This document shows positions 11,007-39,415 of a DNA stretch of 64,000 bases, one piece after another. Every line of letters starts with the position of its first letter. The stretch's first letter is position 1. This DNA comes from Methanomassiliicoccaceae archaeon (GTDB lineage: Archaea; Thermoplasmatota; Thermoplasmata; Methanomassiliicoccales; Methanomethylophilaceae). Under the pieces are notes generated by a model. It was given only the letters and a program-made list of their open reading frames with translations. It searched no databases and had not been told where the DNA came from. The DNA lies in contig PWHV01000023.1 in NCBI GenBank assembly GCA_003555025.1, forward strand, positions 1 through 64,000, given 5' to 3'. The position numbers were made by a program, and so were the translations under genes.

Positions 11007-11819
11007 ATGGAAGGACTGAGGCGCTTCCTGGAGGAGGACGCCCCCGCGGGCGACGTCACCAGCGAGCTGCTGGTGCCCGAGGGGGCCCAGGCCCGCGCCG
11101 TGCTCAGCAGCGGCAATGCGGGAGTGCTCGCCGGAGCGGAGGAGGCCGCCTGGCTTTTCCGTGACGGGGGCCTCGAGGTAGGTCTCCTGTTGGTCGACGG
11201 CTCCCAACTGGCCGCTGGAGACGAGGTCATGAAGGTGGAGGGGGACCTGCGCCAGATACTCCTGCGGGAGAGGACCTGTCTCAACATCATGATGATGATG
11301 TCCGGCGTCGCTACCGTCACGCGCGACGTCCTGGAGCGCTGTCGCGCCGTGAACCCCGCGGTCACATTGGCCGCCACCCGCAAGACCCTGCCCGGCCTGC
11401 GATCGCTGCAGAAGAAGGCCGTCTCCCTCGGCGGCGGGGAGCCCCACCGCATGAGCCTCTCCGACCACATAATGGTCAAGGACAACCACATCGATGCCGC
11501 CGGCGGGATGAACAAGGCGCTGGGTCTTCTCAAGGGCCGAAGGCCCGGGACGGTGGTGGTGGAGGCCGAGGAGCTCGCCGCCGCCCTCGCCGCCGCATCC
11601 TGGGGCGCGGACGTGGTGATGCTCGACAACATGACCCCTGAAGAGGCCCGCCGCAGCTATCGCAGAATCAAGGAGGAGCATCCCTATGTCATGGTGGAGG
11701 CCTCTGGAGGCATAGGTCCTGAGGAGGCGCCCGCCTACGCCGACGCCGCCGACCGGGTGTCGATGGGTTTCCTTACTCACTCGGCGCCCTCGTTGCAGTT
11801 CTCCCTGCACCTGCTCTAG
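11007..11819 (+). CDS. nadC: Nicotinate-nucleotide pyrophosphorylase (quinolinate phosphoribosyltransferase)
   Basis: The 270 residues include EDAPAGDVTSELL at the N-terminus and the catalytic block AATRKTLPGLRSLQKKAV with its Arg and Lys residues. The segment HRMSLSDHIMVKDNHI and a VDVVMLDNM-like strand (ADVVMLDNMTPEEA) complete the barrel. It converts quinolinate and PRPP to nicotinate mononucleotide in NAD synthesis. It starts 4 nt after the nuclease gene, so it belongs to the same unit. NadA and NadB are not in the window. Confidence 0.93.
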   Translation: MEGLRRFLEEDAPAGDVTSELLVPEGAQARAVLSSGNAGVLAGAEEAAWLFRDGGLEVGLLLVDGSQLAAGDEVMKVEGDLRQILLRERTCLNIMMMMSGVATVTRDVLERCRAVNPAVTLAATRKTLPGLRSLQKKAVSLGGGEPHRMSLSDHIMVKDNHIDAAGGMNKALGLLKGRRPGTVVVEAEELAAALAAASWGADVVMLDNMTPEEARRSYRRIKEEHPYVMVEASGGIGPEEAPAYADAADRVSMGFLTHSAPSLQFSLHLL

Positions 11820-12601
11820 GCGCGGGTGCGGTGATGGGACATGTGGTCCGCGTCCCAGCCGATGCAGCTGGCCACCAGCTCGGCCACATGGATCACCGGA
11901 ACCTTCCTGGTGACGGTGTCGAACTGCAGGAAGCAGAACGGACAGGAGGTGACCAGCGCTTCCGCGCCCGGATAGGCGGAGACGGCCTCGTCGCTGACCT
12001 TTCTGGATACATCGTCGTTGACCGATGTCAGCGAACCGCCGCAGCAAACACGGCCCTCGGCCTGCACCGCCTCGCATCCCAGCGCCTCGACGATCTCCGT
12101 GAGCATGGCGTCGGCGCCCCCGCCGCCGTTCCCTGAGAGGTGGCTGCCGTGGCATCCCGGATGGATGCCCAGGCGCAGGCCGCAATCGTCCCTCTTCAAC
12201 TCCATTATCCTTTCCAATCGGGAATGGACGAGCTCAAGGAACCCTACCACCTTCGCCTGGCCGGTGTATTCCATCCCCAGCTCCCTGAGCACAGGGTCGG
12301 CATGCTCTTTGCCGCTGGAGTCCAGCAGCTCGCCCGACTCCCTCAGGGACAATGTGCAGCCATCGCAGAGGGTCAGTACCGCGCGGCCTCCGCGTTCAGC
12401 GATGGTATGCAACCTGGCGCCGCTTACGAGCCAGGTCTCTAGCCCCAAGGACCTCAGGCCCACCGGCTCGACGCAGCAGGTGAAATCAGGGAAGTCTTCA
12501 TGGGCGATGCCCAGGGAATCAAGCAGGAAACGGGCCGCGGACTCCACGAAAGGCAGCTTTGTGGGTATGGCACAGCCAGGGTAGACATAAAATTCAGTCA
12601 T
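11816..12601 (-). CDS. hdrB: CoB-CoM heterodisulfide reductase subunit B
   Basis: The 261-residue protein contains both cysteine-rich CCG modules. The first comprises YPGCAIP, FTCCVEP and LTLCDGC; the second comprises HPGCHGSH, VCCGGSL and SCPFCF. In HdrB these bind the unusual [4Fe-4S] clusters that split the CoM-S-S-CoB disulfide. The start at 12601 overlaps the end of hdrC by 8 nt; the open frame extends 13 codons further upstream, but that part lies within hdrC. It is convergent with nadC (4-nt overlap). HdrA is not present here. Confidence 0.93.
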   Translation of the reverse strand: MTEFYVYPGCAIPTKLPFVESAARFLLDSLGIAHEDFPDFTCCVEPVGLRSLGLETWLVSGARLHTIAERGGRAVLTLCDGCTLSLRESGELLDSSGKEHADPVLRELGMEYTGQAKVVGFLELVHSRLERIMELKRDDCGLRLGIHPGCHGSHLSGNGGGGADAMLTEIVEALGCEAVQAEGRVCCGGSLTSVNDDVSRKVSDEAVSAYPGAEALVTSCPFCFLQFDTVTRKVPVIHVAELVASCIGWDADHMSHHRTRA

Positions 12602-13055
12602 GAGAGAACCCCGTTCGGGACACGATCTTCCCCAGCTCACGCATGGCCCGGTCCCCGTCCCCCATCTCCGGCAGGCCCAGGTCCTGGCGTGACTTGGCGG
12701 TCCGCGGCCCCGCGGGGAAGCCCCTCCCTTCCTTGAGGAACGAGGCCGCCCCCTTCTTGAACCGAGATGGGGCGCCGCCCTCGAGGGCGGAGCGGTAGCG
12801 CAGATGGGTTATGAGCAGGGCGATCGAGATGTCCACCGGGCAGACGTCTTCACAGATGTAGCACAGAAGGCAGTCCCACACGTTCTCCTCGTTGCCCTCT
12901 TCCAGCATCCCCTGCACCAGCTTGTGCGGGTCTATCCCGCCGTGTCTGGTGCTGGGGCAGGACCGGGCGCAGGCGCCACAGTCCTGGCACTCGTCGAGGG
13001 AGAACATCTCCGTGAGTCGCTCGTCGGAGATGTCTTCGAGGTCGAAATCATCCAT
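12594..13055 (-). CDS. hdrC: CoB-CoM heterodisulfide reductase subunit C
   Basis: The 153-residue product has two ferredoxin-type clusters, CQDCGACARSCP near residue 23 and CLLCYICEDVCPVDI near residue 62, followed by a basic helical tail. HdrC passes electrons to HdrB, its partner in the next gene. The pair without hdrA is known from methylotrophic methanogens, where electrons can come from an HdrA elsewhere, HdrD-type modules or membrane complexes. The gene is divergent from a small Cys-containing ORF. Confidence 0.93.
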   Translation of the reverse strand: MDDFDLEDISDERLTEMFSLDECQDCGACARSCPSTRHGGIDPHKLVQGMLEEGNEENVWDCLLCYICEDVCPVDISIALLITHLRYRSALEGGAPSRFKKGAASFLKEGRGFPAGPRTAKSRQDLGLPEMGDGDRAMRELGKIVSRTGFSHD

Positions 13056-26997: not shown

Positions 26998-27360
26998 ATG
27001 ATGCTCGTGGAGGAATACTTACCAGTAGCGTTATTCGCTGTGCTGGCCCTGGGATTCGCTCCCTTGGCCTGGTGGGCCTCCAGGTTCTTTCGTCCCGAGA
27101 AACCTTCCGAGTGGAGGAACACGACCTATGAGTGCGGCTCGGTGCCTATCGGCGAGGCGCAGGTCCAGTTCAAATTCCAATACTACATGTTCGGCATTAT
27201 CTTCGTGGTCTTTGACCTCGTTATCGTTTTCTTGATGCTTTGGGCCGTCGCCTTCGCCGACCTCACCGCCATGGGCAAGATGTGGGCGGTGGCCTTCCTC
27301 GGAATTCTTCTTTTGGGAGTGACTTACGCTTTGAAGAAGGAGGAGTCACTATGGATATGA
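26998..27360 (+). CDS. fpoA: Fpo/complex I-like subunit A
   Basis: The 120-residue protein has three membrane helices. It carries the NuoA/FpoA hallmark of a conserved Cys and acidic region (RNTTYECGSVP, EAQVQFKFQYYMFGIIFVVFD) between helices 1 and 2. It is part of the membrane arm near the quinone/methanophenazine site. First gene of a 12-gene run in the order A-B-C-D-H-I-J-J-K-L-M-N. It ends 10 nt inside fpoB. Confidence 0.95.
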   Translation: MMLVEEYLPVALFAVLALGFAPLAWWASRFFRPEKPSEWRNTTYECGSVPIGEAQVQFKFQYYMFGIIFVVFDLVIVFLMLWAVAFADLTAMGKMWAVAFLGILLLGVTYALKKEESLWI

Positions 27361-27914
27361 GCCTGTACCCGCACGCGATTGCTATGAGCGCCTCTGAATA
27401 CATGTCCTGGTCGACGGCGATGATCGACGGGCTGCTCAGCAGCGGCATGAGGAGGCAAGTGGATAGGCTGACCGGCCCGATCTGGGCGTGGGCGATGAAG
27501 AACTCCATCCATCCCCTGCACTTCGGACTGGCATGCTGCGCTCTGGAGATGGCGGCCGCGTCCAACACCAAGTACGACGCGGAGAGGCTGGGGATGATCT
27601 ACCGCTCCTCGCCCCGTCAGACCGATGTGCTGATAATCAACGGCTGGATATCCAAGAAGGTCCGCCCGGACATCAGGCGCCTTTACGAGCAGATGCCTTC
27701 GCCCAAGTGGGTGGTGGCGATGGGCGAGTGCGCCATATCCGGCGGACCCTGGTACGACTCCTACAACATAGTCCAGGGCACCGACCAGATAGTGCCTGTG
27801 GACATCTACATACCCGGATGCCCGGTGAAGCCCGACGCGATGATTGACGGTTTCCTTCTTCTGCAGAAGAAGATCGAGAAGTACTTCGCGCGCGGCGTGT
27901 TCCTGGAGGGATGA
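27351..27914 (+). CDS. fpoB: Fpo/complex I-like subunit B (terminal Fe-S subunit)
   Basis: The 187-residue protein carries the ligands of the terminal [4Fe-4S] cluster N2: the double Cys in GLACCALEMAAASNTKYD, then VVAMGECAISGG and IYIPGCPVKPDAM. It hands electrons to the methanophenazine-type carrier in the membrane. The start at 27351 overlaps the end of fpoA and is preceded by AAGGAGGAG. Confidence 0.96.
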   Translation: MDMSLYPHAIAMSASEYMSWSTAMIDGLLSSGMRRQVDRLTGPIWAWAMKNSIHPLHFGLACCALEMAAASNTKYDAERLGMIYRSSPRQTDVLIINGWISKKVRPDIRRLYEQMPSPKWVVAMGECAISGGPWYDSYNIVQGTDQIVPVDIYIPGCPVKPDAMIDGFLLLQKKIEKYFARGVFLEG

Positions 27915-27918
27915 TAGC

Positions 27919-28395
27919 ATGGCCGGCAACGATGATTTCCATGAGGCTCCCACAGTGGAGCAGGTCATAGAGCTGCTGAGCGCCAAGTTCGGCGACGATG
28001 TGACATTGCGCGGGAGCAAGGCCCGCCGGGTCAATCTCAACGTCAAAAGGGAGAGGGTCTACGAGCTGTGCGAGTACATCCACGATGTTCTGAACTTCGA
28101 GCAGGCCTCCTCGGTCTGCGGCGTGGACTGGGAGACGCACATGCAGGTGGTCTACCACCTCTCCAACTACTTCAACGGCGTCATGATCGAGGTCGAGACG
28201 GACATCCCATTGGATGACCTCCGCGTCGATTCGGTGACGCCCATATGGGAGGGCGCCAACTGGCATGAGAGGGAGACCTACGAGCTCTTCGGGATAGTGT
28301 TCGACAACCACCCCCATCTGGAGAGGCTGCTCACCCCCTGCGACTACCAGTTCTTCCCCTTCCGCAAATCGTACAAGCTAAGGAGGGCTGAATGA
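27919..28395 (+). CDS. fpoC: Fpo/complex I-like subunit C
   Basis: The 158-residue NuoC/30-kDa-type protein has the family signature EGANWHERETYELFGIVFDNHPHLERLLTP near its end. It forms part of the peripheral arm connecting to subunit D. It is 4 nt after fpoB and shares an ATGA-type junction with fpoD. Confidence 0.95.
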   Translation: MAGNDDFHEAPTVEQVIELLSAKFGDDVTLRGSKARRVNLNVKRERVYELCEYIHDVLNFEQASSVCGVDWETHMQVVYHLSNYFNGVMIEVETDIPLDDLRVDSVTPIWEGANWHERETYELFGIVFDNHPHLERLLTPCDYQFFPFRKSYKLRRAE

Positions 28396-29480
28396 TGACC
28401 TCGAAAATGTGGGTTACCATGGGGCCGCAGCACCCGTTCTCGCACGGGCTGTGGACCCTCAAGGTCAGAGTGGACGGCGAGGTCATAACCGACGCGACGC
28501 CGATCATCGGCTACCTGCACCGCGGGTGGGAGAAGGAGTGCGAGCACCGCACCTATCCGCAGATCATACCGATGGCGGACCGTCTGTGCTACTCCGCCTC
28601 CATGACCTGGGCCCATCTATACGTGATGGCGGTGGAGGAGGGCCTCGACCTGGAGGTCCCCGAGAGAGCGCAGTACCTCCGGGTGGTAGCGGACGAGATA
28701 TGCCGCATACAGTCTCACCTGATGTGGCTGGCGGCCATGGGCACCGACCTGGGCAACCTGACGGTGTTCCTATGGTCCCTCCGCGAGAGGGAGATCTTCC
28801 TGGACCTCTTCGTCAAGCTCTGCGGTCAGAGGCTGACCACCAACTATCCCCGCATCGGCGGCGTCCGCAACGACATGCCCTATCTCTTCGAGAGGGACTG
28901 CATGCGCGCCGTGGATCGCTTCGAGAAGAAGCTGTGGGACATAATCGCGCTGATGGACGACTCCGCCATATTCCTCTCCAGGATGCAAGGCGTCGGCCAC
29001 GTCACCCGCAAGGAGGCGGCCAACCTCGGACTCACCGGTCCGACCATGAGGGGCTGCGGCGTGGACTTCGACATCCGCCGCGACGACCCCTACGAGGTAT
29101 ACGACCAATTGGACTTCGAGGTGCCGGTGTCCCAGGACGGGGACGCCTACGGCCGCTACGCGGTGCGCATCGAGGAGATGTTCCAGAGCTGTGAGATAAT
29201 CAGGCAGGCCATGGAGGGGATGCCTGACGGGCCGGTGAGGGTCAAGGCCCCGCGCAACGTCCCCGAGGGCAAGCATTTCGCCCGCCTCGAGGATCCCCGC
29301 GGCGAGGGGCTGATGTACCTGATATCCGACGGTACCGACCGCCCCTACCGCCTCAAGGTGAAAAGCCCGATATTCGTGAACGTCTCCGCCTCCAAGAGGC
29401 TGGTCCTGGGAGCGAGGATGGCCGACGTGCCCGCGGTGATGGGCACCCTGGACATGTGTCTAGGGGAGACGGACAGGTGA
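28392..29480 (+). CDS. fpoD: Fpo/complex I-like subunit D
   Basis: The 362-residue NuoD/49-kDa-type protein starts with WVTMGPQHPFSHG and IIGYLHRGWEKECEHRTY, forming the quinone-site surface. The segments GVRNDMP and GPTMRGCGVDFDIRRDDPY follow. The NiFe ligands of related hydrogenases are absent, as expected for Fpo. ATG codons at 28392 and 28395 both fit; AGGAGGG lies just before them. Confidence 0.95.
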   Translation: MMTSKMWVTMGPQHPFSHGLWTLKVRVDGEVITDATPIIGYLHRGWEKECEHRTYPQIIPMADRLCYSASMTWAHLYVMAVEEGLDLEVPERAQYLRVVADEICRIQSHLMWLAAMGTDLGNLTVFLWSLREREIFLDLFVKLCGQRLTTNYPRIGGVRNDMPYLFERDCMRAVDRFEKKLWDIIALMDDSAIFLSRMQGVGHVTRKEAANLGLTGPTMRGCGVDFDIRRDDPYEVYDQLDFEVPVSQDGDAYGRYAVRIEEMFQSCEIIRQAMEGMPDGPVRVKAPRNVPEGKHFARLEDPRGEGLMYLISDGTDRPYRLKVKSPIFVNVSASKRLVLGARMADVPAVMGTLDMCLGETDR

Positions 29481-29484
29481 TCGC

Positions 29485-30639
29485 ATGAGCATCTCTGACT
29501 GGGTAAGCATAAGCGACTCAACCGCCAACAAGGTCTCCCCCTACGAGGTCTACAACCTGCCCTACGCCATCGGCCATGGCTTGTGGGAGTTAATCGGCGG
29601 CGTCATCGCATGGATAGTGAACATCCTCGCCCCCGGGAACCGGCTCTCACCGTTCCTCATCGGCGACTTCATCACCAACCTGATGGGTCTGCTCATCATG
29701 GTGGTGGTCTTCTTCGCCGTGATATTCCTCGTCAACCTGACGATGATCTGGATCGAAAGGAAGACCCTGGGGAGGATAATGGACCGCCGGGCCACCAAGA
29801 TAGGCCCGCTGGGATACCTGCAGAACCTCGCCGACGGCCTGAAGACCTTCCTCAAGGAGCACATCATGCCGGACAAGGCGGACAAGAAGGGCTACATGTG
29901 GGCGGTGAGCATCGTCATCGGCAGCGCCGTCCTCATCGCGGGCATGATACCGCTCAGCCCGCGCTGGTTCCTGGCGGACTACGGCACCGGCCTGCTGATA
30001 ATATTCGGCATCTTCGCCGTCTCGCCGTTCATGATCCTGGTCGCCGGTTGGGCGCAGAACAACAAGTACTCGCTCATCGGCGGCATGAGGGCCGCGGCGC
30101 AGATGATCAGCTACGAGATACCGATGCTGCTGGTCTTCGCCTCCATCGCCCTGATGGCGGGAAGCTTCAACATAAACGACATAGTGCAGTTCCAGATGGA
30201 CACCACCTGGTTCATCGTGCCGCAGATAATCGGGTTCGTGGTCTTCATGGTCGCCGCCACCGCGGAGGCCGAGAGGATACCCTTCGACCTGCCTGAGGCC
30301 GAGGCCGAGCTGGTGGAGGGATGGCAGACCGAGTACGGCGGGATGAAGTGGGGGCTCATCATGCTCTCCGACTACTTCCGCGGCTATGTGGCCTGCGCCC
30401 TGGGGGCGATAATGTTCCTGGGTGGGTGGTCGATACCGTTCGTGGACAGTCTGGTCGCTCCGGAGATAGTCTTCCTGCTGAAGGTAGTGCTGCTGTTCCT
30501 CATCATGGTCTGGGCCCGGGGCACCTTCGGCCGCATCAGGACCGACCAGATCCTCAACATAGGATGGAGGGTCCTGCTGCCGCTGGCGGTGGTAAACCTG
30601 TTCATCGTGGTGCTGCTCAAGATAGGAGGTGTCTACTGA
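29485..30639 (+). CDS. fpoH: Fpo/complex I-like subunit H
   Basis: The 384-residue membrane protein has about eight to nine helices and the NuoH motifs WIERKTLGRIMDRRATKIGPLGYLQNLADGLK and AERIPFDLPEAEAELVEGWQTEYGG. This subunit forms the entrance of the carrier cavity and links the peripheral arm to the proton-pumping arm. The N-terminus has an extra polar stretch of about 25 residues before the first helix. Confidence 0.95.
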   Translation: MSISDWVSISDSTANKVSPYEVYNLPYAIGHGLWELIGGVIAWIVNILAPGNRLSPFLIGDFITNLMGLLIMVVVFFAVIFLVNLTMIWIERKTLGRIMDRRATKIGPLGYLQNLADGLKTFLKEHIMPDKADKKGYMWAVSIVIGSAVLIAGMIPLSPRWFLADYGTGLLIIFGIFAVSPFMILVAGWAQNNKYSLIGGMRAAAQMISYEIPMLLVFASIALMAGSFNINDIVQFQMDTTWFIVPQIIGFVVFMVAATAEAERIPFDLPEAEAELVEGWQTEYGGMKWGLIMLSDYFRGYVACALGAIMFLGGWSIPFVDSLVAPEIVFLLKVVLLFLIMVWARGTFGRIRTDQILNIGWRVLLPLAVVNLFIVVLLKIGGVY

Positions 30640-31379
30640 TGGCGCTGAAATACCTTGACAAGTACCCGAAGAACGTCGCCCTGCGCGGATGGATACTTAA
30701 ACCGTTCTTCACCACCTTGAAGAGCCTGGTGAAGACCACCATCCGCCGGCCGGTCACCATAATGTACCCCTACGAGAAAGAGTGGGTCCCCGACAACTAC
30801 CGCGGAAGGCCAGGGCTGGTGTTCGAGAAGTGCCTGGGCTGCGGCATATGCGCCCGCATATGCCCCACCACCTGCATCGAGATGGTGGAGGTGGACGACG
30901 AGGAGCTGGGCGCCGTGAAGCGCCCCCAGGTCAACGTTGGCAGGTGCATGATGTGCGGCTACTGCGCCGAGTACTGCCCGGTCGAGGCGATGACGGTGAC
31001 GCCGGAGTACGAGCTGGCGGCGTTCACCCGCGAGGAGCTCATCTACGACCCCTACAGCCTCAAGTGGGAGAACACCACCAAGGGCATGGAGGTCAAGATG
31101 GAGGAGCATCTCATCTCCAACCTGAAGAAGGGCATCGTCGACCAGCCTTCTGCATTCTATGAGCTGGACCGGCCCAAGCTTATCGGCGAGAAATGCATAA
31201 GCTGCTCCCGCTGCGCCAAGATATGCCCCGTGGATGCGATCGAGATGGTCGTGGTCGGCGAGAACGAGAAGGGCAAGCCGATCAAGCATCCCAAGATAGA
31301 CGAATCAAAGTGCGTCTTCTGCGAGCAGTGCATCACGATCTGCCCCAAGGACGCCCTGGAAATCAACGAGGTGCTCTGA
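30639..31379 (+). CDS. fpoI: Extended FpoI with four [4Fe-4S] motifs
   Basis: The 246-residue product starts like NuoI/FpoI and has the usual two cluster motifs, CLGCGICARICP and CMMCGYCAEYCP. After a helical linker of about 70 residues it carries a second two-cluster ferredoxin unit, CISCSRCAKICP and CVFCEQCITICP. Typical FpoI is around 100 residues shorter and has only two clusters. The extension could be a docked ferredoxin-type domain that receives electrons directly, which suits an Fpo complex without the F420H2-oxidising FpoF. That role is inference. Starts at ATG 30639, 1-nt overlap with the fpoH stop. Confidence 0.9.
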   Translation: MALKYLDKYPKNVALRGWILKPFFTTLKSLVKTTIRRPVTIMYPYEKEWVPDNYRGRPGLVFEKCLGCGICARICPTTCIEMVEVDDEELGAVKRPQVNVGRCMMCGYCAEYCPVEAMTVTPEYELAAFTREELIYDPYSLKWENTTKGMEVKMEEHLISNLKKGIVDQPSAFYELDRPKLIGEKCISCSRCAKICPVDAIEMVVVGENEKGKPIKHPKIDESKCVFCEQCITICPKDALEINEVL

Positions 31380-31693
31380 TGTTCGGAATAGACACAAGCG
31401 ACCTGCTGGGCATGGACCTCAGCTGGTTCGGCCTGGACACCTTCTTCTTCCTGATAGCGGCGGCCATAACCGTCGCCGCGGCGATCTACGTGGTAATCTC
31501 GAAGGAGGTGGTGCACAGCGCGTTCTACCTGGCACTGACCTTCGTGGGAGTCGCCGCCGTCTACTTCTTCCTGAATGCGGAGTACATAGCCGTCATTCAG
31601 CTGATGGTCTACGTCGGCGCGATCACCATCCTCTTCGCCTTCAGCATCATGCTGACCAGGAGGAACATCGTTGGGGGTGACCTCAATGAGTAG
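31379..31693 (+). CDS. fpoJ: Fpo/complex I-like subunit J, N-terminal part
   Basis: The 104-residue protein has three helices, with HSAFYLALTFVGVAAVYFFLNAEYIAVIQLMVYVGAITILFAFSIML, the conserved NuoJ core. It ends after RRNIVGGDLNE, where NuoJ of bacteria would continue, and the remaining helices are encoded by the next gene. The split arrangement is also seen in Methanosarcina Fpo. Confidence 0.9.
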   Translation: MFGIDTSDLLGMDLSWFGLDTFFFLIAAAITVAAAIYVVISKEVVHSAFYLALTFVGVAAVYFFLNAEYIAVIQLMVYVGAITILFAFSIMLTRRNIVGGDLNE

Positions 31694-31949
31694 GAAGACT
31701 ACTGCGGCGCTGGTCCTGGTGATAGCGTTGGGGGCGGTGCTTCTCGGCACCGCCGCCACCGTCGACTGGGACGCCGGCGAGACCATACACAGCATACCGT
31801 TCAACCCCGATGAGGGCGAGATGGCGCCCGGCGACCTAAACCACGCGCTCTTCGAGGAGTACGGGGCGGTCGTCATGGTGATGGCGATACTCATGTTCGC
31901 CGCCATCCTCGGAGGCGTGTATCTGGCGAAGGAGGAGGATACGCAATGA
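31686..31949 (+). CDS. fpoJ: Fpo/complex I-like subunit J, C-terminal part
   Basis: The 87-residue protein has an N-terminal helix, an extracellular loop rich in acidic residues, and a C-terminal helix (YGAVVMVMAILMFAAILGGVYLAKEE) corresponding to the last part of NuoJ. ATG 31686 overlaps the first J gene by 8 nt and is preceded by GGGGGTGA; a TTG at 31671 also opens the frame. It overlaps fpoK in an ATGA junction. Confidence 0.88.
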   Translation: MSRKTTAALVLVIALGAVLLGTAATVDWDAGETIHSIPFNPDEGEMAPGDLNHALFEEYGAVVMVMAILMFAAILGGVYLAKEEDTQ

Positions 31950-32248
31950 TACCCATAGAGATGTTCCTTGGGCTCTCCGCGGCCCTCTTCGCGGTCGGCG
32001 CATACGGAGTGCTGACGAAGAACAACGGCCTGGTCGTGCTGATGTGCATCGAGTTGATGCTCAACGCCGCCAACATCAACTTCATCGCCTTCGCGGCGTT
32101 CTTCAACGATGTCGCCGGGCAGGTATTCGTCATCATGGCGATAGCGGTGGCGGCGGCGGAGGTCGCGGTGGGCATAGCCATACTGCTGAACCTCTACAAG
32201 ACCAGCGGGACGACCGACCTCGAAGAGATCAACATCCTGAGGTGGTGA
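31946..32248 (+). CDS. fpoK: Fpo/complex I-like subunit K
   Basis: The 100-residue protein has three helices and the NuoK signature VLMCIELMLNAANINFIAF with the buried Glu used in proton translocation, plus a second Glu in AAAEVAVGIAILLNLY. It overlaps the preceding gene by 4 nt. Confidence 0.95.
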   Translation: MIPIEMFLGLSAALFAVGAYGVLTKNNGLVVLMCIELMLNAANINFIAFAAFFNDVAGQVFVIMAIAVAAAEVAVGIAILLNLYKTSGTTDLEEINILRW

Positions 32249-32252
32249 AGAC

Positions 32253-34289
32253 ATGATGTTCATTGAATACGCATGGCTCATACCCATAATACCGCTGGTG
32301 GCCTTCCTGGTCATCGGATTCTTCGGACACCGGACCCCGGAAGGGGGAGGATACATCGCTGTCGGCGCCGCCGGCCTGGCGTTCGTGCTCTCCGCCCTGG
32401 TGGGGTATGAGATACTCACCGGCAAGGTGTCGGCGCCTTACGTGGACCAGGTGCTGTGGTTGGAGATATCCCAGGGCATCACCCTGGACTTCGGCCTCTA
32501 CCTGGACAACCTCGCGGTGCTGATGATGATCTTCGCATCCCTCATCAGCACCCTGATATTCATCTACTCCATCGGCTACATGCACGATGAGGGCGAGAAG
32601 AAGAGGAGATACTACACCAAGGTCTCCCTCTTCCTGACGGCGATGCTCGGCCTGGTCATGGCCAGCAACTTCCTTCAGATGTTCATCTTCTGGGAGATCG
32701 TCGGCCTCTGCTCCTACCTGCTCATCGGCTTCTGGGGTTTCAAGCACCCCAAGGGGGAGAAGGCCTCGGCCGCGGCCGCCTCGGCCGCCAAGAAGGCCTT
32801 CCTGGTGACCAGGATGGGCGACGTCGCCCTGTTGGCGGGTCTTTTCGTCCTGCTCAACGAGTTCGGCACCCTCAACTACGCGGAGCTGTTCTCGGCCGCC
32901 ACCCTGGCCGCCGCTGACACCTCCGTCGTGGCCCTGGGCTCGGTGCTGATATTCGGCGGCGTCATCGGCAAGAGCGCGCAGTTCCCGCTGCACGACTGGT
33001 TGCCGGACGCGATGGAAGGTCCCACTACAGTCTCCGCTCTGATACACGCGGCGACGATGGTCAAGGCCGGTGTTTACCTCACCGCGCGCTCCTTCCCGCT
33101 CTTCGTTCAGAGCGCAGATGTGATGCTCTTCGTGGCAATCATCGGCGGCGTGACGGCGTTCTACGCGGCCACCATGGCCCTGAACAACATGAACATAAAG
33201 AGGGTCCTGGCCTACTCCACCCTCTCCCAGCTGGGATTCATGATCCTCGCCCTGGGGGCGGGAGGCTACGTGGTCGCCACCGGCGTCGCCAGCGGCGTGG
33301 ACGTTTCCGGCGCCAAGGCGTTCGGCTACACCGCCGGAGTCTTCCACATGATGAACCACGCCTTCTTCAAGGCCCTGCTCTTCCTCGGCGCCGGATCGGT
33401 GATACACGCCGTGGGCAGCGAGGACATGCGGCAGATGGGCGGCCTGCGCAAGCGGATGGGAATAACGTCCATCACCATGCTGATAGGCACCCTGTCCATC
33501 GCTGGCATACCGGTCTTCGCCGGGTTCTGGTCCAAGGACTTCGTCCTCGAATCGGTGCTCGTCGTCGCCGAGAGCAGCGAGCCAGCGGCGATGATATTCC
33601 TGCTGCTTTACGTGCTGGCGCTGGCCACCGCGTTCATGACCGCCTTCTACATGTTCCGCCTTTGGTTCATGACCTTCGGCGGCGAGGAGGGCGAGGCGAG
33701 CAGGCATTGCCACGGCGAGTCACCGCCGGTGATGAGCTACCCGCTCATAGTGCTATCCGCCTTCGCCGCCCTCTCGGGCTTCGCCATCCTCTTCGGCTTC
33801 AACGCCGCGCTGACATTCAACTACGTCGGCGGCGAGTTCGTGGTCGGAGGCGGAGGCTACGCGATGCTCGATGTGCTGGAGAAGATATTCACCAGCCCGT
33901 GGGCCTACATGGCGATCGTGATCGCGCTGCTCGGCATATACGCCGCTTACCGCATGTACTACGTCAAGGACCTCAGCCCCGGACGCTTCAACCGCGACGG
34001 GCAGTCGGCCTTGTATCAGCTGCTGCAGAGGAGGTACTACTTCCCGCAGTTCTATGACGGTATAGCGCTGAAGATGGCCTACCCGACGGCCTTGGCCGTC
34101 GAGGAGGTCGACCGCAAGGCCGTCGACGGCACCGTCGACGGCATAGCCAACTCCCTCGCCGGAGGGTCGCAGATGCTGCGCCGGATACAGACCGGCTTCC
34201 TGCAGACCTACGCGGCCTACGTGGTGGGAGGTCTGGTGGTGTTGATCGCTATGATCTACCTCATCGGCTGGATGACAGGAGGGGTGTGA
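32253..34289 (+). CDS. fpoL: Fpo/complex I-like subunit L (antiporter-like)
   Basis: The 678-residue membrane protein has about 16 helices and the antiporter-like core FWEIVGLCSYLLIGFW, AQFPLHDWLPDAMEGPTTVSALIHAATMVKAGVYL and MMNHAFFKALLFLGAGSVIHA. It also carries the C-terminal long amphipathic region that braces the membrane arm. Charged residues of the proton channel (Glu in helix 5, Lys and His in the discontinuous helices) are present. Confidence 0.95.
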   Translation: MMFIEYAWLIPIIPLVAFLVIGFFGHRTPEGGGYIAVGAAGLAFVLSALVGYEILTGKVSAPYVDQVLWLEISQGITLDFGLYLDNLAVLMMIFASLISTLIFIYSIGYMHDEGEKKRRYYTKVSLFLTAMLGLVMASNFLQMFIFWEIVGLCSYLLIGFWGFKHPKGEKASAAAASAAKKAFLVTRMGDVALLAGLFVLLNEFGTLNYAELFSAATLAAADTSVVALGSVLIFGGVIGKSAQFPLHDWLPDAMEGPTTVSALIHAATMVKAGVYLTARSFPLFVQSADVMLFVAIIGGVTAFYAATMALNNMNIKRVLAYSTLSQLGFMILALGAGGYVVATGVASGVDVSGAKAFGYTAGVFHMMNHAFFKALLFLGAGSVIHAVGSEDMRQMGGLRKRMGITSITMLIGTLSIAGIPVFAGFWSKDFVLESVLVVAESSEPAAMIFLLLYVLALATAFMTAFYMFRLWFMTFGGEEGEASRHCHGESPPVMSYPLIVLSAFAALSGFAILFGFNAALTFNYVGGEFVVGGGGYAMLDVLEKIFTSPWAYMAIVIALLGIYAAYRMYYVKDLSPGRFNRDGQSALYQLLQRRYYFPQFYDGIALKMAYPTALAVEEVDRKAVDGTVDGIANSLAGGSQMLRRIQTGFLQTYAAYVVGGLVVLIAMIYLIGWMTGGV

Positions 34290-34290
34290 A

Positions 34291-35808
34291 ATGACGGACA
34301 TGCTGCTTTCATTGGTGCTCTTCACCCCTCTGGTGGGAGCGGTCCTGGCGCTGGCGATGGCCGGCGACATGGCCAAGTACGCCCGCTATGTGGCACTGGC
34401 GTTCACCGCCTTGCCGCTGGCGGCGACGCTGTACCTGGTGACCGCGTTCGACGCGTCGTCAGGTTACCAGTTCGTGGACCAGTACACGTGGATAGAGACC
34501 TCATTCCTGAGCATGCAGTACATCGTGGGACTCGACGGCCTGAGCCTGATAATGGTCCTGCTGACCAATGTGCTGATGTTCCTGGTCGTGCTGTTCTCCT
34601 GGGAGGAGAAGGAGAGGCCCAACTTCTTCTTCGCCCTCCTGCTGGGGATGCAGGTCGGCCTGCTGGGGGTGTTCATGGCGATGGACTACTTCCTGTTCTT
34701 CATCTTTTGGGAGGTGGCGCTCATCCCCATGTACTTCCTCATCAACATATGGGGAGGTCCGAAGAGGCATTACGCGGCGATCAAGTTCTTCATCTACACC
34801 CACGTGGCAAGCCTGGTCATGATGATCGGCATATTCGCGCTGGTGATGGAGTCCGCCGCGGTGACCGGTACCGGCCAGCTCTCGTTCGCGTTCGCGGACG
34901 TCAGCGCGGCAGCGGCGCTGTTCAGCCAGGGCTTCCAGGTCCTGGTGTTCGGCCTGCTGTTCTTCGGCTTCGCCGTGAAGATGCCCATAGTGCCCTTCCA
35001 CACCTGGTTGCCGGACGCCCACGTCGAGGCGCCCACCGCCGGCAGCGTGCTGCTGGCCGGCGTGATGCTGAAGATGGGCACCTACGGTATAATCAGGATC
35101 TGCCTGGAGGTCCTCCCCGAGGGGGCGGTCGCCTGGCAGATACCGATGATAGTCATCGCCCTGGTGGCCATAGTCTACGGCGCGCTGGCGTGCATAGCCC
35201 AACGCGACCTGAAGAAGCTGGTGGCGTTCTCGTCCATCAGCCACATGGGCATGGTCCTCCTCGGCATCGCCACCCTGAGCGACATCGGCATCGCCGCCGC
35301 CGCCTTCCAGATGTTCGCCCACGGGCTGATCACCGCGGTGCTCTTCATGGTCTGCGGCATAGCGGGCCACAATGTGGGCACCCGGCAGATACCGCTCCTG
35401 GGCGGGCTGGCAGAGAAGATGCCCAACTACGCCGCCTTCATGATGATAGGCTTCATGGCGTCCCTCGGGCTTCCCAGCCTGGTGGGCTTCGTTGCGGAGT
35501 TCAACATCCTGGTGGCGTTCTACAACTGGGGCCTGAGCGAGGGAATGGTATGGACCATAATGATCGCGCTGGCAGCCCTGCTTCTCACCGCCGGTTACTA
35601 CCTGTGGGCGATGCAGAGGAGCATATTCGGCCCGTTGACTGACAAGATCGACACCAGCAAGGTGCACGACGTCAGCGTCTACGAGGGCGTCTCCCTCGCC
35701 GCGCTCTGCGGCCTGATCGCGTTGTTCGGGATATTCCCCGCCCTGGCGTGGGACTTCATATTCCCCTACGCCAGTGATCTCGCCGCTGTTCTGGAGGTGT
35801 TCCTGTGA
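34291..35808 (+). CDS. fpoM: Fpo/complex I-like subunit M (antiporter-like)
   Basis: The 505-residue membrane protein has the NuoM-type motifs FWEVALIPMYFLINIWGG, VPFHTWLPDAHVEAPTAGSVLLAGVMLKMGTYG and ISHMGMVLLGIATL. It is one of three Mrp-antiporter-like proton-pumping subunits of the complex. Stop overlaps the GTG start of fpoN (GTGA). Confidence 0.95.
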   Translation: MTDMLLSLVLFTPLVGAVLALAMAGDMAKYARYVALAFTALPLAATLYLVTAFDASSGYQFVDQYTWIETSFLSMQYIVGLDGLSLIMVLLTNVLMFLVVLFSWEEKERPNFFFALLLGMQVGLLGVFMAMDYFLFFIFWEVALIPMYFLINIWGGPKRHYAAIKFFIYTHVASLVMMIGIFALVMESAAVTGTGQLSFAFADVSAAAALFSQGFQVLVFGLLFFGFAVKMPIVPFHTWLPDAHVEAPTAGSVLLAGVMLKMGTYGIIRICLEVLPEGAVAWQIPMIVIALVAIVYGALACIAQRDLKKLVAFSSISHMGMVLLGIATLSDIGIAAAAFQMFAHGLITAVLFMVCGIAGHNVGTRQIPLLGGLAEKMPNYAAFMMIGFMASLGLPSLVGFVAEFNILVAFYNWGLSEGMVWTIMIALAALLLTAGYYLWAMQRSIFGPLTDKIDTSKVHDVSVYEGVSLAALCGLIALFGIFPALAWDFIFPYASDLAAVLEVFL

Positions 35809-37262
35809 CGATGCCTGACTTCACTCTGATAGCCCCGCAGCTGATCGTGCTGGTGGCGGCGCTGCTAGTACCGGGACTGTACCTCCTCACCAAGAACGAC
35901 AAGCTGGTGGGCGTCGTCTCGCTCATATCGGTGCTGGCCGCCGGCCTGTACCTGGGCTGGATGATGATGGAGGGCGTGTCGGGGAGCTTCCTCGGCGTCT
36001 ACGCGGTGGACGACTTCTCACTGCTGCTCACCGGCCTGTTCCTGGTGGTGGCCTTCCTGGTGCTGCTCACCTCCCTCAGGAGCGTGGAGCGCGACCGGCA
36101 CCACGGCGAGTACTACGCGCTGATGCTGGCGGCCACCGCTGGTATGATGTTCGTGGCCTGCGCCGAGGACCTTATAGGTATATTCGTCGGTGTCGAGCTT
36201 ACGAGCATCTCCTCCTACGCGTTGGTGGCGTTCCGCAAGAACGACCCCCGCGCCGCCGAGGCGGCGGTGAAGTACCTGGTCATCGGTGGCCTGTCCACCG
36301 CTCTGACCCTCTACGGCTTCTCGCTGCTCTACGGCGTGACGCAGACCACCAACCTGGATGCCATCGCCCTCGCAATCGGCTCCGCCCCCACTGCGGGCCT
36401 GCTGCTATCGGTGGCGATGATCATAGCCGGTCTGGGATTCAAGATAACAGCCGTCCCCTTCCACATGTGGGCCCCCGACGTCTACGAAGGCGCGACCGTA
36501 CCGGTCACCACCTTCCTGGCGGTGGGCTCCAAGAAGATGGGGTTCGTTGCTCTCTTCAAGATATTCCTCATCGGCTTCATCGCCGCCCAGGCGACGTTGG
36601 TCAGCGACGTTCAGTACGCCTTCGCCGTGCTCGCGGCCATCACCATGACCGTGGGCAACGTCGTGGCCCTGTCGCAGACCAACATGAAGAGGCTTCTCGC
36701 CTACTCCAGCATCGCCCAGGCGGGCTATCTGATGATGGTCCTGGCCATAATGACGCCCTACGCGCTGACCGGCGGCCTGTTCCACATGATCACCCATGTG
36801 TTCATGAAGGGAGGGGCCTTCATCATCGTGGCCGCGCTCTGCTACCTCTCCATGGGGGAGAAGCTCAGCGACTATAAGGGCCTGGCCAAGAGGGCGCCGG
36901 TGCTGGCGTTCGCCATGCTGATATTCCTTTTCGCCCTGGCGGGCATTCCGCCGCTGGCGGGTTTTGTCAGCAAGTTCGTGCTGTTCTCCAGCGCGGTGGG
37001 CGTCCCCGGTGCGATGGTGGAGACGCAATGGATATGGCTGGTCTTCGTGGCGGTCATCAACAGCGCCATCTCGTTGTACTACTACGCGAGGGTGGTCAAG
37101 TTCATGTACGTCGACGAGGCCGAGAGCGTCGAGCCCATCAGGGTCCCCATGCCATTCATGGCGGCCATACTGATTTGCCTCGTCGCCGTCATCGCCATGG
37201 GTGTGTTCCCCGAGCCGGTGATCACCCTGTGCGAGAACGCCGCCACCGCCCTTATGGGTTGA
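35805..37262 (+). CDS. fpoN: Fpo/complex I-like subunit N (antiporter-like)
   Basis: The 485-residue membrane protein has the NuoN-type motifs GVELTSISSYALVAF, VPFHMWAPDVYEGATVPVTTFLAVGSKKMGFVALFK and LAYSSIAQAGYLMM. GTG 35805 overlaps fpoM and follows GGAGGTG at good spacing; ATG 35811 is a possible alternative. It is the last gene of the operon. Neither fpoF nor fpoO follows. Confidence 0.95.
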   Translation: MTMPDFTLIAPQLIVLVAALLVPGLYLLTKNDKLVGVVSLISVLAAGLYLGWMMMEGVSGSFLGVYAVDDFSLLLTGLFLVVAFLVLLTSLRSVERDRHHGEYYALMLAATAGMMFVACAEDLIGIFVGVELTSISSYALVAFRKNDPRAAEAAVKYLVIGGLSTALTLYGFSLLYGVTQTTNLDAIALAIGSAPTAGLLLSVAMIIAGLGFKITAVPFHMWAPDVYEGATVPVTTFLAVGSKKMGFVALFKIFLIGFIAAQATLVSDVQYAFAVLAAITMTVGNVVALSQTNMKRLLAYSSIAQAGYLMMVLAIMTPYALTGGLFHMITHVFMKGGAFIIVAALCYLSMGEKLSDYKGLAKRAPVLAFAMLIFLFALAGIPPLAGFVSKFVLFSSAVGVPGAMVETQWIWLVFVAVINSAISLYYYARVVKFMYVDEAESVEPIRVPMPFMAAILICLVAVIAMGVFPEPVITLCENAATALMG

Positions 37263-37301: not shown

Positions 37302-37346
37302 TTGTATACCCAGCAAGTCTTAAGTAGACCATATCATTATCAGCCG

Positions 37347-38315
37347 ATGATGGGTCAGACCTGGGACTCCGCCATCGAGGACCATCTCCGCCGGGTGGAC
37401 GAGCTGATGGAGGAGAGCATCTCCTCCAGCCAGGCGGAGCTGACGGAGATATGCCGCCACATCCTGGAGTCCGGAGGCAAGCGCCTGCGCCCGGGGGTCT
37501 GCATACTTGCCTTCCTGGCATCCGGCGGCGACGACCCCTCAAGGATCATCAAGACCGCCACCGCTTTCGAGCTCATCCACAGCGCCACCCTGATACACGA
37601 CGACATCAACGACGACAGCGAGCTGCGGCGGGGCAGGCTCACGGCGCACCGGCTCTTCACCGTCCCCAAGGCCATCATCGCCGGGGACTACCTTTTCGTT
37701 CAGGGCTTCCGTCTCGGGGGGACAATGGATGAGGAGATCGTCAACGCCATCGCCGACGCCTGCAACTCCATGGCGGAGGGCGAATTCATCCAGTCGGACC
37801 ACGAGCGCCGCGCCGAGACCTCGATGGAGGTCTACCGGCGCATCATCGAGGGCAAGACCGCCAAACCCATCGCTGCCGGGGCGCGGGTGGGCTCTTACCT
37901 CGCCGGCGCCGACACCATGCTGATTGAGGCCATGGGAGGCTTCGGCCTCAACATAGGCCTCGCCTTCCAGATAGCCGACGACATCCTCGACATCGAAGGT
38001 GACGAGACAAGCACCGGGAAGATGACCGGCATCGACATCTACGAGGGCAAGCCGACGCTGCCCATAATCATGGCGATGCGGGACGAGGAAACGGGGCCGA
38101 GGGTCCGGGAGATATTCGCTCTCAAGCAGAAGAGCGACGATGATGTGGCCGAGGCCCTGCAGCTCATCCGTGGCGCTGACGTGCTCGAGCGTTGCCGCGA
38201 ACACGCCCGTGACTTCGTCCGCGAGGCCAAGGAGTTCCTCGAGGGCGCGCCGCCATCGGAGTACCTGGATTCCCTGACGGCAGTGGCGGACTACGTTCTG
38301 GAGAGGAAGCTTTAG
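37347..38315 (+). CDS. Geranylgeranyl diphosphate synthase family protein
   Basis: The 322-residue prenyltransferase has SGGKRLRPGVCILAF, the first Asp-rich motif HDDINDDSELRRG and the second motif ADDILDIEGD followed by TGKMTGIDIYEGKPTLPI. It condenses isopentenyl units into a C20 chain for archaeal lipids; exact product length cannot be read from this. The frame is open from a TTG at 37302, but the ATG pair at 37347/37350 fits the family N-terminus. An AT-rich TTTATTGTATA stretch lies about 45 bp upstream. It is followed after 8 nt by a GGR-like gene. Confidence 0.92.
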   Translation: MMGQTWDSAIEDHLRRVDELMEESISSSQAELTEICRHILESGGKRLRPGVCILAFLASGGDDPSRIIKTATAFELIHSATLIHDDINDDSELRRGRLTAHRLFTVPKAIIAGDYLFVQGFRLGGTMDEEIVNAIADACNSMAEGEFIQSDHERRAETSMEVYRRIIEGKTAKPIAAGARVGSYLAGADTMLIEAMGGFGLNIGLAFQIADDILDIEGDETSTGKMTGIDIYEGKPTLPIIMAMRDEETGPRVREIFALKQKSDDDVAEALQLIRGADVLERCREHARDFVREAKEFLEGAPPSEYLDSLTAVADYVLERKL

Positions 38316-38323
38316 GAGGCACC

Positions 38324-39415
38324 ATGTCGGCCTTGAAGACCGATGTCCTCGTCGTCGGAGCAGGGCCCGCGGGAAGCACCGTGGCCCGTTACGCGGCGTT
38401 GCAAGGCCTTGATGTCACGATCATAGAGCGACGGTCGCGCATCGGCGTCCCCGTTCGCTGCGGCGAGTTCATGCCCAGCATCGACGAGGTCCGCGGCATG
38501 TTCCCCGAGGCCGCGGGCATGGAGGAGCTGTTCGACATCCCCTCCCCCCTCCGCCGCCGGGAGATAGAGGCCATACGCCTGGTCACGCCCAAAGGGAGGT
38601 CATACGATCTTCCCTTCCAAGGCTACAGCACCGACCGCGACCGCTTCGACCAACATCTGGCCTCGCAGGCGGTCTCCGCCGGCGCCGAGCTCATGACCTC
38701 CTGCGCATTCCAGAGGCGCGAGGGTGACCGCTTCATGACCTCGCAGGGGCCCATCGAGGCCAAGGTGCTCGTCGGCGCCGACGGCCCCGGCTCGCGGGTG
38801 GCGAGGGAGACGGGCCTGCCTCTCCCCAAGGACCCCTACCCCGCCGTCACCGCCCAGGCCGAGGGGGATTTCGAGCCGGTGTTGGTGATGTTCTTCGGCG
38901 GCATAGCCCCCGGAGCCTACGGCTGGATAATACCCAAGGACGGCGGCGCCAACGTCGGCGTGGGGCACAACCCTCGGCTGGCCGACCGCAGCACCTCGGA
39001 GTACTTCCGTCGCTTCGCTGAAGGCCAGGGCTTCAGCCTCGAAGGGAGGGTCAGCGGGAAGCACGTCCCCGCTCAGGGACCGATCTCCCCCATTCACGGT
39101 GAGGGGGTGCTGACCGTTGGTGACGCCGCCGGCCATGTCATGGCGGTTAACGGCGGCGGCGTGCCGTTGGCGATGATCGGCGGCCGTCTCGCCGCCGATG
39201 CCATAGGCGGCCACCTGCTGCGTGGAGAGCCGTTGTCCCTCTACGAGGACGCCTGCCGCCGGGCGCTGTTCCCGCGGCTGCGCAGCGCCGCCTGGACCAA
39301 GCTGCTGGCGGACACCTTCGCCTTCGGCTCCGACCTCCGCACCGAATGGTGCATGTTGGCCCTCGGCCGCCGCCGCATGGCGAAGATGCTCCGCTGCCGC
39401 TTCCCCTTCCCGTGA
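38324..39415 (+). CDS. Geranylgeranyl reductase family FAD-dependent oxidoreductase (second copy)
   Basis: The 363-residue flavoprotein has DVLVVGAGPAGSTVARYAA, VPVRCGEFMPS, VLVGADGPGSRVAR and the FAD-binding LTVGDAAGHVMAVNGGGVPLAMIGG. Adjacent placement 8 nt after a GGPP synthase gene makes hydrogenation of geranylgeranyl chains in membrane lipids the most likely role. It is distinct in sequence from the copy at 3501-4664, so the two probably act on different isoprenoids or steps. The gene is convergent with nob1 (stops adjoin). Confidence 0.88.
   Translation: MSALKTDVLVVGAGPAGSTVARYAALQGLDVTIIERRSRIGVPVRCGEFMPSIDEVRGMFPEAAGMEELFDIPSPLRRREIEAIRLVTPKGRSYDLPFQGYSTDRDRFDQHLASQAVSAGAELMTSCAFQRREGDRFMTSQGPIEAKVLVGADGPGSRVARETGLPLPKDPYPAVTAQAEGDFEPVLVMFFGGIAPGAYGWIIPKDGGANVGVGHNPRLADRSTSEYFRRFAEGQGFSLEGRVSGKHVPAQGPISPIHGEGVLTVGDAAGHVMAVNGGGVPLAMIGGRLAADAIGGHLLRGEPLSLYEDACRRALFPRLRSAAWTKLLADTFAFGSDLRTEWCMLALGRRRMAKMLRCRFPFP

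Follow-up and report, generated by a model that had tools for sequence, protein, structure and literature searches.

A second two-cluster ferredoxin module in subunit I of an archaeal Fpo-type complex I

Methanomassiliicoccales depend for their energy metabolism on electron entry into a headless complex I-like enzyme, and where those electrons enter is the question raised by an fpo operon from a Methanomassiliicoccaceae archaeon. The operon lies within a 64,000-nucleotide stretch of DNA (contig PWHV01000023.1, positions 1 to 64,000), here called the window. An earlier note on this DNA counted four CxxCxxCxxxCP motifs and about 100 extra residues in FpoI, saw no fpoF in the operon, and proposed that the extension serves as an electron entry point. 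The translation and profile models bear out both counts. The statement on fpoF also holds, as PF04432, the C-terminal family of FpoF, has no match in the window's genome (97.4% complete).

FpoI contains a second complete dicluster fold

The extended gene sits between fpoH and fpoJ in an operon with the gene order A-B-C-D-H-I-Jn-Jc-K-L-M-N (Table 1). Its start overlaps the stop of fpoH, and its stop overlaps the start of the next gene. The four motifs begin at residues 65, 103, 186 and 225, each followed by proline. The NuoI model TIGR01971 recognizes the protein with 164.6 bits (cut-off 113.05), the best stretch being residues 31-140, and the curated model for FpoI of F420H2 dehydrogenase, NF040612, scores 119.2 bits against a cut-off of 180. 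Because NF040612 comprises 135 positions and aligns only to residues 27-144, the extension amounts to approximately 100 residues. The FwdF polyferredoxin model NF042909 likewise remains below its cut-off (81.6 against 375 bits), and Pfam marks Fer4 four times and the dicluster family Fer4_7 twice. FpoI belongs to the NuoI family by its profile score, by the two motifs of its core and by the location of its gene between those for the H and J subunits, but the sequence does not end after the two-cluster core. Rather, a normal two-cluster NuoI core is followed C-terminally by a second complete two-cluster ferredoxin fold, which would place four [4Fe-4S] clusters in a single chain. A predicted helix of FpoI stands where NuoI and NdhI have their amphipathic N-helix, which has been described for NdhI (PMC6992706).

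Table 1. Features of the extended fpoI gene and its surroundings (window coordinates)
Feature	Position	Strand	Basis
fpoI, extended subunit I, 246 aa, four CxxCxxCxxxCP motifs	30639..31379	+	ORF translation, profile matches
N-terminal helix, aa 14-35, in place of the NuoI/NdhI amphipathic N-helix	30678..30743	+	predicted helix
Module 1, aa 62-120, canonical NuoI dicluster (N6a/N6b ligands)	30822..30998	+	profile, alignment, predicted fold
Variable linker, aa 143-176	31065..31166	+	low pairwise identity
Module 2, aa 180-243, added 2[4Fe-4S] ferredoxin fold	31176..31367	+	8 further invariant Cys, predicted fold, Fer4_7
K211-G-K213, module 2 hairpin tip, candidate docking residues chosen post hoc	31269..31277	+	basic columns in alignment
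fpoABCDHIJnJcKLMN operon, without fpoF	26998..37262	+	profile matches
Polyprenyl diphosphate synthase and geranylgeranyl-reductase-family genes, after fpoN	37302..39415	+	profile matches

An AlphaFold2 model of FpoI, built from a 62-sequence alignment, has a mean pLDDT of 80.6 (∼85 over the extension) and a pTM of 0.66, which leaves the relative placement of the modules unfixed. In the model, module 1 (E58-60, H70-74, E80-87, E91-99, H108-111, E118-120) and module 2 (E178-181, H191-195, E201-208, E214-220, H230-234, E240-243) present the same order of elements, which in module 2 is strand-helix-hairpin-helix-strand. Foldseek searches of the PDB return chains of complex I subunit I as the top matches, mostly over 105-175 columns. 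The matches that span most of FpoI (∼210 columns) are FwdF polyferredoxins, with low TM-scores.

All 16 cysteines are invariant across 62 diverse FpoI/NuoI sequences (members less than 93% identical to one another). Within the order, mean pairwise identity is 71% in module 1, 61% in module 2 and 38% in the linker. Judging from these alignments, the second ferredoxin module is under strong constraint. At its hairpin tip, column 211 is basic in 90% of the 62 sequences and column 213 is K or R in 95%. The hairpin tip of module 1 has no such basic column, and module 2 as a whole is near neutral.

Distribution and origin of the extension

Our survey comprised 243 genomes, all from a single phylum. 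A full-length match is present in all 32 sampled Methanomassiliicoccales genomes, each with four motifs on inspection. Of the 80 best named loci, all but one also have four motifs (79/80), and the exception is cut off by a contig end; these 80 were chosen by similarity to extended sequences, leaving 32/32 as the sole unbiased count. The closest named relative (L095, 92% identical) comes from Methanomassiliicoccaceae archaeon B1Sed10_99.

Four-motif NuoI proteins are also found in Marine Group III (family f11, 5/5), in a further Thermoplasmata family (f5, 8/8, including Thermoplasmata archaeon DBS1-1.bin134 at L129) and in one genome, G026, of family f27. The gene mcrA is present in all 14 Methanomassiliicoccales tested, none of which has a haem-copper oxidase, and was not found in any tested f11, f5 or f27 genome, where haem-copper oxidases occur in 5/5, 4/5 and 1/1, respectively. 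Two-cluster NuoI proteins were seen in f6, f7, f8, f9, f12, f20, f26, f28, f34, f35 and f39. Since the extension is also present in archaea that lack mcrA, most of which have terminal oxidases, the input domain may well have arisen before both of these uses. A tblastn search against plasmids gave two-cluster rhizobial NuoI as top matches, a single dicluster aligning to both modules.

In G026 (L040:4295-9681, + strand), no J-N homologue was recognized within 9 kb after nuoI, which is followed by large FG-GAP and PKD-domain proteins. In genome G010 of family f17 (L175:1565-3460, + strand), one reading frame joins a NuoI-like dicluster domain to the sequence of a GltD-like FAD oxidoreductase, an arrangement similar to NCBIfam PRK13984.

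In a tree of NuoH and the NuoI core, built without the extension and without a root outside the phylum, all 29 extended rows fall on one side of a branch together with one two-cluster row (f12, on a long branch), with support of 98/98. The data do not reject a constraint of the extended rows to one clade (p-AU 0.33). A second tree, of the modules alone, is based on few columns and likewise has no outgroup from beyond the phylum; it unites all module 2 sequences, from four lineages, in one group (98/92), and f27 adjoins Marine Group III among the module 2 sequences, as it does among the module 1 sequences. Because the extended complexes group together and their second modules form one group, module 2 is ancient and most likely of single origin, with possible loss in f12. 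Its best relative in the window's genome is module 1 of FpoI itself (41% identity, 49 bits; the next match has 24 bits), which hints at internal duplication of the subunit I dicluster module. In the module tree, however, module 2 does not nest among the extended module 1 sequences.

A possible electron entry point

By the presence of an FpoF subunit, the complex of the window's genome does not qualify as an F420H2 dehydrogenase, PF04432 being absent there and found in the Methanosarcina control. Across 52 genomes, with Methanosarcina acetivorans as positive control, PF04432 occurs in three and never at an fpo locus. Three genomes of the order (G174, G119 and G079; L055, L056 and L057) carry PF04432 genes of the FrhB/FpoF family away from the fpo locus. 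The two-cluster lineages searched also lack PF04432. NuoF (PF10589) was considered as a hidden head and rejected: it is present in only 9 of 48 genomes, has no match in the order, is absent in most two-cluster lineages, and bears no clear relation to the extension among these 48. In the ORFs scanned beside operons L035, L040, L041 and L052, no electron-input genes were recognized.

With no FpoF and hardly any NuoF at extended loci, another electron input is needed. However, the lack of FpoF alone does not call for module 2, since many two-cluster complexes of this phylum have neither FpoF nor NuoF. For the same reason, we rejected as a rule that the extension compensates for an absent FpoF. 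The absence of FpoF and NuoF is shared by both types of subunit I and does not predict the extension. The proposed function is plausible but too narrowly drawn, as the extension follows neither a methanogenic lifestyle nor, in itself, the lack of FpoF. The pattern that the earlier note gave as a refutation, an extension common in complexes that retain FpoF, was not seen in our search of one phylum. As for the proposed entry point, a complete, constrained module in an operon without fpoF favors it; a methanogen-specific replacement of FpoF does not fit the occurrence of the extension in lineages lacking mcrA.

We consider it somewhat better than an even chance that module 2 is an ancient built-in relay on which reduced ferredoxin docks, passing electrons into N6a. 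Beyond the presence, completeness, conservation, grouping and distribution of module 2, which the data support directly, we infer its position, its donor and the direction of electron flow. Module 2 would lie at the arm's cytoplasmic end, where NuoG or FpoF otherwise feeds in electrons, and reduced ferredoxin would dock there. Electrons would then travel from module 2 through N6a, N6b and N2 to the acceptor, driving proton pumping. In methanogens, the donor would be the ferredoxin reduced by MvhADG/HdrABC.

Published work on related enzymes is consistent with such a route. Ferredoxin oxidation has been reported for the Fpo-like complex of this order (PMC7374477), and the complex has been proposed to oxidize ferredoxin made by HdrABC/MvhADG, with electrons going to HdrD (PMC7374477, PMC6019823). 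For Methanothrix, clusters of FpoB or FpoI have been proposed as the ferredoxin entry site (PMC10470525). Ferredoxin docking in cyanobacterial NDH-1 involves a basic patch that the NdhI hairpin and NdhH form together; two lysines of this hairpin are conserved, and the ferredoxin cluster lies 9.6 Å from N6a (PMC6992706). The basic hairpin tip of module 2 may be an analogous docking surface, a parallel picked after looking at the sequences. By the same analogy, a second module would not be required for ferredoxin entry, as ferredoxin docks on the two-cluster NdhI in NDH-1 and the phylum has two-cluster headless complexes of its own. We found no mention of the FpoI extension in the literature searched, a body to which key subscription papers do not belong.

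Alternatives to the relay differ in what they make of module 2. An artefact of gene fusion or assembly, or a peculiarity of one genome, has a negligible probability and was rejected: the frame is unbroken, and length and motif spacing are the same in all 32 genomes of the order and in dozens of independent assemblies. The single-genome error that the earlier note had allowed for is thus excluded. Another possibility, which we regard as unlikely, is that module 2 serves to dock another enzyme instead of free ferredoxin, either HdrD, as the electron exit to heterodisulfide, or HdrABC/MvhADG, for direct channelling into the complex. In this order, Fpo and HdrD have been proposed to interact directly (Lang 2015, as cited in PMC7374477), and the window's genome encodes two HdrD-like proteins, but their genes are on contigs other than that of fpo, and Marine Group III, f5 and f27, which have no mcrA, carry module 2 as well. 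Because of these lineages, a role specific to HdrD cannot be original, and module 2 may have been co-opted for HdrD later, in methanogens.

Less probable still is that module 2 acts as an electron reservoir or structural cap, shielding the arm end left open by the missing head without docking any partner. This would accord with the variable linker and with the many headless complexes that work without module 2, but a mere cap would need neither eight invariant cysteines nor a conserved basic hairpin tip.

The two HdrD-like proteins (L184:361-1527, 388 aa, contig C34; L185:382-1461, 359 aa, contig C13) have TfrB as the nearest model, below its cut-off, and PF02754 is too general for tracing HdrD. 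Within the window, adjacent HdrB-like and HdrC-like genes (11816-13055, − strand; 127.5 against 345 and 72.5 against 160 bits) form a divergent HdrBC pair. The prenyl synthase and reductase genes that follow fpoN are found there in 9/9 other genomes of the order examined. The same pair occurs near nuoN in the f5 locus L052, in swapped order, and Marine Group III has a prenyl synthase beside nuoN. The conserved prenyl genes after fpoN may fit a lipid-soluble (prenylated) electron carrier, or membrane lipid synthesis.

Relation to known systems

The relay reading can be extended to a broader proposal, which we put forward tentatively and at rather less than even odds. A distinct class of complex I might have as its input a second ferredoxin domain in place of a set of separate subunits, a domain that possibly arose by internal duplication and would predate the split of Methanomassiliicoccales, Marine Group III and the two further lineages. 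In that case, methanogenesis and aerobic respiration would both have made use of one ferredoxin-fed complex. As a bounded, conserved domain, module 2 lends itself to deletion and to detection in a structure, and Methanomassiliicoccus luminyensis is culturable. The extension also provides a trait for sorting the evolution of archaeal complex I.

Compared with NuoI/Nqo9/NDUFS8 and with FpoI of the Methanosarcina F420H2 dehydrogenase, the extended FpoI is alike in its core dicluster, N-terminal helix and operon position, and differs in its ∼100 extra residues, its second dicluster fold and the lack of FpoF. NdhI of cyanobacterial and chloroplast NDH-1 is likewise subunit I of a complex I without an NADH module that takes its electrons from ferredoxin (PMC6992706). 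However, NdhI has two clusters on which ferredoxin docks directly, whereas the extended FpoI adds a built-in dicluster module. Apart from NuoI, the polyferredoxins FwdF and MvhB match the extension over the greatest length in fold and sequence. They have several dicluster modules per chain, but they lack a NuoI core and serve other enzymes. In formate hydrogenlyase, the four-cluster ferredoxin-like subunit HycB feeds the NuoI-like two-cluster subunit HycF, the two being separate proteins with formate dehydrogenase H as the donor. The extended FpoI, by contrast, is one chain. It is real, old and highly conserved, and represents a new form of subunit I within complex I rather than a new system.
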